64,000 bases of DNA, taken from an uncultured Lentisphaeria bacterium (GTDB lineage: Bacteria > Verrucomicrobiota > Lentisphaeria > Victivallales > UBA1829). The position numbers and the translations under genes were made by a program. The notes below the pieces were generated by a model, which was not told where the DNA came from, ran no database searches, and was given only the letters and a program-made list of their open reading frames with translations. The DNA lies in NCBI GenBank assembly GCA_949282305.1, contig CASDPB010000040.1, positions 1 to 64,000 of the forward strand. Reading direction: 5' to 3'. Below are positions 1 through 6,463 of the stretch, piece by piece (position 1 is the first letter of the stretch; each line of letters starts with the position of its first letter).

Positions 1-1530
1 CGAGCTGTTGCAGCTGTAGAACTCCGGCGCAAAGGGCAGTTTTCTGAACGTGCCGTCCGGCAGGATCTCAAGCATGCAGTCTGCCGTATGAATCACATTG
101 CGGCGCCGTCTTTCAAAGACCGAAGAATCAACGGTTTCGCCCTCCAGAAAGGATCGAATGTCACGACAGAGGTTTGCGGTGCGTTTCGAGGCGAGAGAGG
201 GCAGACCGTATTTGCGCGAGAAGTCCAGCAGCTGTTCGGAAATGAGGCCTTGCAATGTCTGCGGCGAGAGCTTTTCCCAAAGTCCGGTCCTCGGCTGATA
301 CATGCGCCAGTTGCCCAGCGGATCGCGTTTCAAATTGCATTTCCGCAGGGTGTAGGCTGCGAAGAATGACTGGTTGATGTTCACGATCTTTCCTTTCTGA
401 TCTTCCTCATACGGTGCGCCGTAACGTTCAATCAGCGATTGCAGCTCGTTATCCGACGGGTTCTGAGCTTTGGAAACTCCGGGAGCGGCAAGACAGACTG
501 CCGCGAACTCCTGCCATGTCTTCGGACCGAATTCCCCTGCCGCAAGATACTGAATATCATCGCCTCTGCGGACTCCCGGCAGACGTGTCAGGCGGCTCGG
601 ATTCTTGTTTGCCTTGTCATAGGGGAACTGCTGCCTGTCGAGATACTCATGCAGAGCTTTTACACGTGCATCATAGAGTCTGCGGTCTGTTCCTGCTTCG
701 ATTTTCACGATGACATGCAGACTCTTGCCGCCCGACCAGACCACCGACTGGATCGGCAGATGCAGCTGTTTGATTTTCGCCCACTGCTCCTCTTTCGTGA
801 GCTCGTCCGCCTCAATCAGAGTGTATCGGAAACTTGTCACATCGGCGTCGCAGGGAGCCTTGCCCGCGATCTCCGCTCTGATCGGGTTCAACGATATCCA
901 AGCGCCGCTTCTGCAGTCGGCAAGCTCCGAGAACAACTTTGTTATGTCCTCAGTATCTGTGCAGGAAAAGAGATTCTCTTTCGAGCGACTGGGGATACTG
1001 CGCCCATTGCTGTTACAGCTCTGTGTGATAATCTCAAAATACTCATCCGGCTTGAAGTTGGTGCTCAGAAACGTACGTGTCTGTTCCGCCATTTTCAGCT
1101 CATCTTGCGGCTCCGTAAACATTTCATTCGGAACGTTTTCCAGCTGTTTCGCAAGCCACTTCAGAGTGCCCAGCGAAATGGGATTCTCTTTGTCGTCGGC
1201 AATACTGTTCCATGTTCTGCGACAGTCGATTTCCTTGAACTTCTCCGGAGCAGTTGCCGACCAGTCGCGGAAGACCTCATACTTACAGCCTGAATGCTTC
1301 AGGGCGCAGGCTGCCTTGAACCACGTGTCATAATCGCAGTCTGCCGGAAACTGTCGGATCAGTTGTACTGCCGCTTTGACATCGTCGCCCTACTGCTTGA
1401 CGCTGCGCTCTTTGTGGTCATTTCCATTCTCCGGGTTCCGTTCCGTTTCTGCGGCGGGCGGAACTTCTTTCTTCCTAGCCGATTCAAAAAACAATTCGGG
1501 TTCAACATAACAATCTGTGTCTTGCATCAT
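1..1530 (-). CDS. D5-type phage/plasmid primase-helicase, 3' part beyond window edge, with in-frame TAG
   Basis: This is the replication primase of the integrated element. The ATG at 1530 overlaps the stop of the upstream HTH gene (ATGA). The frame stays open to the window edge except for a TAG at 1392-1390 (codon 47). After it comes a PriCT_2-like stretch (W-F-K-A-A-C-A-L-K, then D-W-S, then T-W-N-S). An archaeo-eukaryotic-type primase core follows, with SGGKSLHV and NPSRLTRLPG, and then a D5_N-like segment. The SF3 helicase part would lie outside the window. A decayed relative at 5729-6255 supports the family call. No credible start follows the TAG in frame, so the gene is either broken early or the codon is read through. 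Family call confident; functional state uncertain. Confidence 0.75.
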
Positions 1531-1787
1531 CTGTCACCTCGTGTTTCTGCTGCGCCATAGCTGGCGAGCTGTTCTACTTGTTCCTGTGCGAATCTCACCT
1601 TGCGTGAACTGATGTTGATCTGTGTCAGGAGTCCCTGACGGACATACGCCCGAAGTGTCGGACGGCTGATCCCCAGCAGTTCCATGGCTCTTTTCGCCGT
1701 TATGACTTCGCGCCGCTGTTTCATACGGCACGCCTTGAGTATCTGTTCTTTTTCCTGCGTGGTGACACCTGAATCACCATCCAGCAC
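1527..1787 (-). CDS. Small helix-turn-helix (excisionase/MerR-like) DNA-binding protein
   Basis: The readable frame has 86 codons from a GTG at 1787. It contains a winged-helix/MerR-type motif: ITAKRAMELLGISRPTLRAYV, followed by a basic wing (SSRKVRF). Such proteins next to a tyrosine integrase act as excision factors or regulators of the element. Its TGA overlaps the primase ATG, so the two are co-translated. The GTG has no Shine-Dalgarno site. A much better start, an ATG at 1823 with AAGGAG at 1838-1833, lies in the same frame but is separated by a TAG at 1793-1791. The true product may therefore be 12 codons longer by readthrough, or made by re-initiation. Confidence 0.65.
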   Translation of the reverse strand: MLDGDSGVTTQEKEQILKACRMKQRREVITAKRAMELLGISRPTLRAYVRQGLLTQINISSRKVRFAQEQVEQLASYGAAETRGDR

Positions 1788-1790
1788 ACG

Positions 1791-1823
1791 CTAAATAAAA
1801 GCGATTGTTTCCGGTTGCAACAT
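1791..1823 (-). other. 10-codon leader or amber-interrupted N-terminus of the HTH gene
   Basis: ATG at 1823, preceded by AAGGAG with a 9-nt spacer, encodes MLQPETIAFI and then TAG. The next in-frame start is the GTG at 1787, three bases after the stop. Either this is a translationally coupled leader peptide, or the real N-terminus of the HTH protein interrupted by an amber codon. The strong ribosome site and kept frame favour the second reading. Confidence 0.5.
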
Positions 1824-2019: not shown

Positions 2020-3447
2020 TTATCCGGCTTTCAAATCCTTAGTGTCAGTAGAATTTGTTGTCGTATTGCTCACCAGTTTTGCCAGCTCTTCCGTGCTGAG
2101 TCCTGAAAGCTGTTTCAGCAGGAGTTCCCTGTCAGGGGCATGAACTTCTTCCTGTGCACTTTCCAGAACCGGCAGGGCTCCAATTGCCTTGCCTTTCGCC
2201 TCATCGGAGATGTGCGCATAATGGCGTGTCATCGCCGTGCTGCCGTGCCCGACAATCGAAGCAACCACATCCAGCGGAACACCCGCATTGGCGCAGAACG
2301 ACACAAACGTATGCCGGAAACTGTGCAGACTGTAAAGATTGGGATTCCGAACACGGTGTGCAGTCCGCTTTTTGCCTGTAGTTTCAAGACCTGTTGCACA
2401 GCGAATGATCTTCATCACGTCCTTCTGAATACCGGAGGGGTTGCTCTGATAACGATGCGCCACTTGTGGAATGATATAATCCTCGCCCTGCATGTTCCGG
2501 GACACCCATGATCTTGCTGTCTGCAAGGCTTCCAATAGATTGGGATGAATCGGCAGAGTCACCGAGCGATAAGATGTTTTTCTGGCAGTCTTTTGCGGAA
2601 TATACGTGATCTGCCGACGTTCCAGATCAATATTCTCCCATTTCATCAGGCACCCGTCCTGACCACGGCACCCAGTCCAGCAGCAGAGATTCAACAGAAC
2701 AAACATCTCATCCTTATACAGCGGCACATATTCCTGCGTGACCAGCTTCCGGACTCTTTTGCGTCCCGGTCCCAGTCCTTCCTGTTCCGATGTATAAAAG
2801 AACCCTGTCCTGAATCCATCAAAAATAGCCTGAACCTGTTCGGAGGTGAACTCATTGCGAGACTCCATTACTCCTGTTTTATGTGCTATCCCATCGAATG
2901 GATTGCAGAGCAGCCCGGCTGATTCAGTTATTACTTTGAAGATCAGATGCAGAGCTTGTTTATATGTATTATAGGTTTTTGCAGATACTTTGTGCTCATC
3001 CCAGAGCTCCTGAAAGTATTCTCCTGCAACATCGTTAATGATTTGTTCAGGCTTTTGGATTTCAGGATGTTTTTGAGACATCCAGTTCAAAAACAAATTA
3101 AGTGCTGACTGATAGCCAGACAGTGTTTTTGAAGCTGTTTCTGAATTTTTAGATTCCCTTAAAAAGATTTTCCATATCTGAGCAAGATCTAGTGACACCT
3201 GCTTTCTCATCTTTCTTGCATCTGCAATATATAAGGCAATTTCTTCTTTTTGTTCCGCACGGAGAACCGGGCGCAGTAATGCTGCTGCTTTTTCAGCCTC
3301 TATTCTTGTTGTTACCGGAGCATCATTTTTGTCCCTTAGAATATAAGATTTTGCTTTCCCATTGATTCTGATCTTCAAATAAAATCTATCTCCCTTTTTA
3401 TAGATAGATCCTGTTCCACGTTCTCTGTAATGATTTTTGCGAGCCAT
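2020..3447 (-). CDS. Tyrosine recombinase/integrase
   Basis: A 475-residue site-specific integrase, the expected length for the family. The N-terminus (GTGSIYKKGDRFYLKIRING) resembles the AP2-like arm-binding domain. A SAM-like core-binding domain follows at about 95-190 and the catalytic domain at about 210-430. Catalytic residues are visible: Arg in WTGCRGQDG, HSFRHTF (H-x-x-R), GHGS and the nucleophile Tyr in TRHYAHIS. It sits about 140 bp from the tRNA-Arg fragment that forms the element's attachment site, and upstream of the HTH and primase genes on the same strand. No in-frame stop interrupts it and it ends in TAA, so integration ability looks intact. Confidence 0.95.
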   Translation of the reverse strand: MARKNHYRERGTGSIYKKGDRFYLKIRINGKAKSYILRDKNDAPVTTRIEAEKAAALLRPVLRAEQKEEIALYIADARKMRKQVSLDLAQIWKIFLRESKNSETASKTLSGYQSALNLFLNWMSQKHPEIQKPEQIINDVAGEYFQELWDEHKVSAKTYNTYKQALHLIFKVITESAGLLCNPFDGIAHKTGVMESRNEFTSEQVQAIFDGFRTGFFYTSEQEGLGPGRKRVRKLVTQEYVPLYKDEMFVLLNLCCWTGCRGQDGCLMKWENIDLERRQITYIPQKTARKTSYRSVTLPIHPNLLEALQTARSWVSRNMQGEDYIIPQVAHRYQSNPSGIQKDVMKIIRCATGLETTGKKRTAHRVRNPNLYSLHSFRHTFVSFCANAGVPLDVVASIVGHGSTAMTRHYAHISDEAKGKAIGALPVLESAQEEVHAPDRELLLKQLSGLSTEELAKLVSNTTTNSTDTKDLKAG

Positions 3448-3583: not shown

Positions 3584-3632
3584 CTGGCTACGGACCAGAA
3601 GGTTGCAGGTTCAAGTCCTACCGGGTGCACCA
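3584..3632 (+). repeat. tRNA-Arg(ACG) 3' fragment: probable attachment site (attR) of the element
   Basis: The bases CTGG-CTACGGA-CCAG form an anticodon arm with anticodon ACG. A variable loop, a T-arm around TTCAAGT, a 3' acceptor strand and encoded CCA follow. There is no matching 5' half upstream (no D-arm or GCACCCG acceptor strand), and the T-stem carries a C-A mismatch. It is therefore a 3' copy, not a working tRNA gene. Integrases that target tRNA 3' ends leave such a copy at the far end of the element. The orientation predicts that the intact tRNA-Arg lies beyond the left edge of this window. Confidence 0.75.
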
Positions 3633-4155
3633 TTTTATTTATATGTAAATTCTTCTCAGCAAGATACTTATGAATTTTAATCATCTGTTTCCTTGCTTCG
3701 TTGTTTTATTATTATGCCTCTTCGACGAACCTTGACACAGCTTATAGCTCCTTTACGCTTGAGATTTCCGGCAACTGATAAATTTTCAGTTGAAGTATTC
3801 GCGATCTCTGAACCCGCATGCTTGCTTGAACAGCTGCGGAAAGGACACATGGATTCTGACAGGCTAAAGGCTCTCTGTGGATGCACACCGGGAACCGCCG
3901 GAATTTGAGCATGGCACCCGCCAACAGCAAAAAAATATCAGTCAGATACAATTTTATCAGTTGGTTTTTAAATTGGAAATGATGATTTTTCATAGTAACA
4001 CTCTTTGATAATGTCCTAAATTTTGTGCAGGAAAAGATTGTTTAAGGCCATGAATGTTTTATGTGTCTGGAATTGGTCACTGGATTTTCAGCAATGATCT
4101 GCAGAAGATTTCCGGAAACTCTTTGAAGAAGAAATGAAAAGAATGTCTGGTTGAC
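3633..4155. other. Intergenic region without a recognisable gene
   Basis: About 520 bp between the attachment site and the promoter of the esterase gene. Short open frames occur on both strands, but none has a ribosome-binding site, a recognisable motif or a plausible composition. It may hold scars of an older insertion, given the decayed primase on the far side of the esterase. I could not assign any part of it. Confidence 0.5.
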
Positions 4156-5728: not shown

Positions 5729-6255
5729 TCGTCAGGCACAAGACATGTCTCCACAAAAGCGTTGACGGAATTGCTCTCCATCAGCAGATCATTGATCCGC
5801 TGCAACTGCTTCTCTGAACGCGGAATCCTGCACTTATTCCGGAGCAGTTTACAAGCTCCCTCAATTGGGAATTCGCCGTGATGATCACGTTGCAGTCGCC
5901 GCTTACATCATAGGTTTCGCTGCATCCTTTTGCTTCTGTCGTCAGCGTGTTCCTGCCGGTCAGAGCTTTGAGTTTGCAGACACCTTTGGTGTTCAGAAAA
6001 TAGGGCTTCACATCTTTTGCCGTGAGGAGGGCTTGTCCCAGTAGACGGTGCATTTCAAAACGTTCCGCCATGTGTTCCAGCCGCAGTGCCGTGCAGTTGG
6101 AACGCCCGATGATCCGTTCCGGATATTCACAGGCGTGGACTTGCCGGATTGGATTCTTGTTCGCCTGTCATGGGGATGCTGTGTCTGTCGAAAGACTCAC
6201 GCGGAGCTTTCACGCGCGCATTATAGAGGTTGCGGTCTGTCCCGGCTTCCGGAGC
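5729..6255 (-). pseudogene. Decayed, internally deleted D5-type primase-helicase
   Basis: Three fragments in different frames read as parts of the primase family at the left edge. About 6250-6140 aligns base by base with 705-600 of the intact copy (peptide EAGTDRNLYNARVKA against EAGTDRRLYDARVKA). About 6127-5850 encodes a helicase segment (RLLGQALLTAKDV, LKALTGRNTLTTEAKG, NVIITANSQLR). About 5825-5729, frameshifted, encodes a C-terminal helicase motif (INDLLMESNSVNAFVETC). The middle of the gene is missing at about 6130. This is a relic of an earlier element of the same family in the same orientation. Confidence 0.8.
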
Positions 6256-6463
6256 CGCGGCGGTGTTGCCTTTCGGAAAGGAAAAGAGAAAATACGAAGT
6301 CAACGGAACCAAAAGAAGTTAATTTTCCTGTGAAAGAAGGGGAAACCGTAATTTCCTTTTCGCAAAAAATATCCGCTTTATTCGGAAAAGATTTTGCAAG
6401 CTGTGGAAAACGGATTAGAGTATCTCCACCATACGAACAGGATTAAGTTTGAAGGATGATTTT

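Follow-up and report, generated by a model that had tools for sequence, protein, structure and literature searches.

Neighbouring in-frame amber codons in a tRNA-Arg integrative element of a Victivallales bacterium: ordinary nonsense or recoding?

Two adjacent genes at the start of a contig from a Victivallales bacterium are each interrupted near the 5' end by a TAG codon, raising the question whether the element that carries them reads amber as an amino acid or holds ordinary nonsense mutations under the standard code. We analysed a 64,000-nucleotide stretch (the window) that starts at the first base of contig C40, and this contig end falls inside a tyrosine-integrase element. The element is an integrative element with a tyrosine integrase, an excisionase-like HTH protein and a primase-helicase, inserted in the 3' end of tRNA-Arg(ACG) (Table 1). 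A 55-bp repeat of the tRNA 3' end adjoins the integrase gene, placing the element among the tRNA-targeted integrative elements, and the left junction lies, together with the intact tRNA-Arg(ACG), at the end of contig C93. The primase matched Pfam PF08707 (E 1.7e-13) and phrog_2597, DNA primase (E 4.5e-58). The gene order, the tRNA target and the 55-bp att repeat resemble those of known tRNA-gene integrative elements that carry a tyrosine integrase, an excisionase-like HTH and a D5-type primase.

Table 1. Features of the element and its surroundings (positions in the window)
Feature	Position	Strand	Remarks
Primase-helicase gene (D5-type)	1..1530	-	Truncated by the contig end; PriCT_2 spans aa 56-127, primase domain begins at aa 136
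In-frame TAG, primase codon 47	1390-1392	-	Variable linker before PriCT_2; gap or variable column in relatives
Excisionase/AlpA-like HTH gene	1527..1823	-	HTH_17, E 2.1e-7; phrog_66 excisionase, E 5.8e-8
In-frame GTG, 2 codons past the HTH TAG	1785..1787	-	Possible restart; HTH domain kept
In-frame TAG, HTH codon 11	1791-1793	-	CAG at this site in the G001 relative
Tyrosine integrase, intact	2020..3447	-	PF00589, E 1.2e-20; in-frame TAG absent; stop is TAA
Right attachment repeat	3584..3638	+	55-bp copy of the tRNA-Arg(ACG) 3' part, without mismatch; the intact tRNA is at the end of contig C93
Remnant of a related primase, degraded and outside the element	5781..6258	-	Primase C-terminal region

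The sequence-only reading of this DNA had described the two interrupted frames, and most of that description held. The HTH gene begins with an ATG at 1823 behind AAGGAG, meets TAG at codon 11 and is then open to the TGA at 1527-1529. The primase ATG at 1530 overlaps this TGA, and its frame reaches TAG at codon 47 and is then open to the contig end. The amber is the sole lesion in each gene, with no TAA, TGA or frameshift in the 608 codons of the HTH and primase genes, and the integrase is free of in-frame TAG, as had been noted. The statement that neither gene has a good start after its TAG is correct for the primase, whose first start codon past the amber is codon 137, but not for the HTH gene, where restart at the GTG at 1787 would give an 86-aa protein that includes the whole HTH domain. 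When 1.25 Mb of this genome was scanned for coding potential, no TAG apart from that of the primase was followed by a long, strongly coding stretch lacking a nearby start.

The 141-bp left end of the element is present in two identical copies, one beside tRNA-Arg(ACG) (L053, 1572-1712) and one next to tRNA-Lys(CTT), where contig C84 begins (L037, 1-141), representing two insertions in one genome. The duplication of an element end within the genome suggests recent mobility, and the assembly may have broken at the element because this end is present twice. The remaining part of the element was absent from the contigs and contig starts that we examined. An open frame at the 141-bp left ends runs into the tRNA, stopping at TAG at one site and at TAA at the other, and gave no family match. 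Degraded copies of the primase C-terminal region occur at two places elsewhere in the genome, the remnant listed in Table 1 and a copy at 6390-7121 of L013 (contig C41), the latter running into IS66 sequence. The window primase itself looks chimeric, its N-terminal part resembling the primase of G001 and its C-terminal part (window 1-510, compared with L015) that of G014.

The closest relative was found in G001, a genome of the same genus (record CALXRI010000026.1), in an element 63% identical to that of the window and with the same gene order. Its target is tRNA-Arg(CCG), and because a different tRNA gene was used, the two insertions are independent. The G001 element also carries one TAG each in its HTH and primase genes, at positions that differ from those of the window. 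In the HTH gene, codon 85 is TAG in G001 against CAG in the window, and the window's amber site reads CAG in G001. The G001 primase amber is codon 136, a site occupied by Gln in the window and in several other primases. As to which residue replaces the TAG in relatives, the HTH gene has CAG in G001; the amber of the window primase, situated in a variable linker, is uninformative about the residue. All three informative ambers in these two full-frame elements stand opposite Gln in the relative. A third species of the genus (G003) contributed a primase fragment that has lost its 5' part. Its two TAGs each stand at a conserved Glu, in one case the invariant Glu of the LNLVEE motif, and neither is at a Gln site. 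Across the three elements of the genus all six stops are TAG, and no frameshift, TAA or TGA was present in the approximately 1780 codons of the amber-bearing frames. None of about 90 further primase matches from 137 genomes of the order contains an in-frame TAG, nor does any HTH gene outside the genus; the copies in the window's genus carry ambers, unlike the amber-free versions of the same gene set in other Victivallales (e.g. L241). Scans of IMG/VR returned no close relative, and phage and plasmid collections yielded only distant primases and HTH proteins.

Among related integrases, those of G001 (L302) and G002 (L303) differ elsewhere but share an identical C-terminal stretch of roughly 90 residues, which may point to recent recombination. 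The G002 contig ends directly past the integrase. Downstream of related integrases of other genera (L304, L305 and L309), reverse-transcriptase-like frames replace the HTH-primase pair.

These TAGs at Gln positions of a mobile element in a standard-code host recall the code-15 gut phages, including crAss-like phages and phAss-1 (PMC9523058, PMC10607447), and the element could likewise read amber as Gln, with a suppressor tRNA encoded in the part missing from both assemblies and an integrase kept amber-free so that it works without suppression. The occurrence of TAG as the only lesion in two independent insertions and a third fragment, as opposed to none in the approximately 90 matches outside the genus, is in line with this proposal, as are the Gln residues at the three informative sites, the purifying selection on the amber genes (see below) and the rarity of TAG as a host stop. 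Nevertheless, we found no tRNA with a CTA anticodon among 41 host and 45 sister-genome tRNAs, in two near-complete genomes in both of which the element is incomplete, and a degenerate CTA-tRNA pattern matched only tRNA-Arg(TCT) and chance sites. A suppressor tRNA on the element could have been missed, since both contigs break off within it, and some recoded phages have no suppressor tRNA of their own (PMC10607447). The density of ambers also speaks against recoding, since TAG makes up about 5% of the Gln codons of the amber genes and is absent from the integrases of the window and G001. The many TAGs across most genes that are expected under code 15 were not found; phAss-1 carries TAGs in 41 ORFs and encodes three suppressor tRNAs, unlike the present element, in which each affected gene contains a single TAG and for which no suppressor tRNA was found. 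Given also the G003 ambers at conserved Glu, one within LNLVEE, and the mostly near-harmless positions of the stops, we consider recoding by the element rather unlikely. Its broader form is more doubtful still: a genus-specific family of Victivallales elements in which TAG means Gln in the excisionase and primase but not in the integrase, so that production of the excision and replication proteins would require expression of a suppressor tRNA carried by the element.

The host reads TAG as a stop. RF1 is present, its GGQ and P(V/A/T)T motifs are intact, and 50 of 833 sampled host genes (approximately 6%) end in TAG, ruling out host-wide reassignment. The integrase and HTH stops of both elements are TAA or TGA, too few to be judged against the host's TAG use. 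An apparently unusual host tRNA-Gln with a 4-bp anticodon stem was dismissed, both tRNA-Gln having normal 5-bp stems. Apparent multi-TAG genes in G014 (C76) turned out to be antisense frames of GC-rich genes, without a family match.

The amber genes are under purifying selection. Between the window and G001, dN/dS was 0.14-0.2 for the amber genes (0.17 for the HTH gene, 0.15-0.2 for the primase), similar to the 0.16 of the integrase; the HTH gene showed 23 changed codons against 23 expected from the integrase rate, and the N-terminal part of the window primase has no more broken conserved columns than an amber-free relative. The low dN/dS, the lack of excess HTH changes and the intact primase columns indicate that the window and G001 amber genes are not long dead. 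We estimated the chance that all six stops are TAG under decay by single mutations at roughly 1-2.5%, or 5-9% if the first two are set aside and only the four discovered later count; these are rough figures from a test that the first two stops had prompted. Three of the four ambers of the window and G001 are nearly harmless as stops, a grouping that we drew up post hoc with the data already seen: the window HTH TAG lies 2 codons before a GTG, the G001 HTH TAG 14 codons from the end of the gene, and the G001 primase TAG at a domain boundary, 2 codons before a TTG and 5 before an ATG. A TAG was also seen in an IS66 TnpA-like frame (L192, contig C45, 2893) where three paralogous copies of the same genome have CAG, indicating that CAG-to-TAG changes also occur in unrelated mobile genes. 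We discarded a count of in-frame stops across paralogues, which consisted mostly of alignment noise.

The ambers might alternatively lower expression without abolishing it, through readthrough or termination-reinitiation, and so act as a brake on the excision and replication genes. The HTH and primase genes look translationally coupled, overlapping by ATGA, two of the four TAGs have a restart codon 2-5 codons further on, and regulation by in-frame stops has been proposed in a survey of bacterial genes (PMC7918605). A programmed signal would, however, be conserved, and the TAG positions differ between the two elements; no 3' context common to the TAGs was found, and the window primase offers no restart for 90 codons. 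We regard such leaky or coupled translation as improbable. Errors of sequencing or assembly in these metagenome-assembled contigs are the least credible source of the ambers. Both contigs do end within a few kilobases of them, and the genome has a second copy of the element end; yet errors would not favour what two independent assemblies show, namely clean single-base changes to TAG, most of them at Gln sites, and not one indel.

We therefore favour ordinary nonsense, because no suppressor tRNA was found, RF1 is normal, TAG works as a stop in the host, amber density is low, three of the four stops are near-harmless and TAGs also occur in dead copies of the genus such as the G003 fragment. The element probably uses the standard code, and its TAGs are probably recent or tolerated nonsense mutations; ordinary or tolerated nonsense is more likely than readthrough or recoding. 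The restriction of the lesions to TAG, the lack of frameshifts, TAA and TGA, and the low dN/dS count against this reading. The sequence-only reading had offered readthrough or recoding, or else simple decay; the former is weakened by the missing suppressor tRNA, the normal RF1 and the low amber density, and is kept alive by the amber-only lesions at Gln sites in an independent element. Under ordinary nonsense, the two window TAGs would be separate point mutations. Restart at the GTG two codons past the HTH amber would keep the DNA-binding domain, and the primase amber would remove PriCT_2, probably inactivating or lowering the primase in the window copy. The reading agrees with the survey cited above, which found in-frame stops to be frequent in bacterial genes, with an excess in the mobilome (PMC7918605), and whose own example is a TAG/CAG pair. 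As in that survey, the genes with single stops are otherwise conserved and have a dN/dS below 1; unlike there, all stops are TAG, the relatives are far apart (dS above 1) and the stop positions differ.

If the element is recoded, stop-codon reassignment would reach beyond lytic gut phages to an integrative element, which would suggest that the choice between residence and excision is switched through the code. If the ambers are ordinary, the locus carries a caution: neighbouring ambers, even at Gln sites and in genes under purifying selection, would be insufficient evidence of recoding unless accompanied by a suppressor tRNA or peptides.
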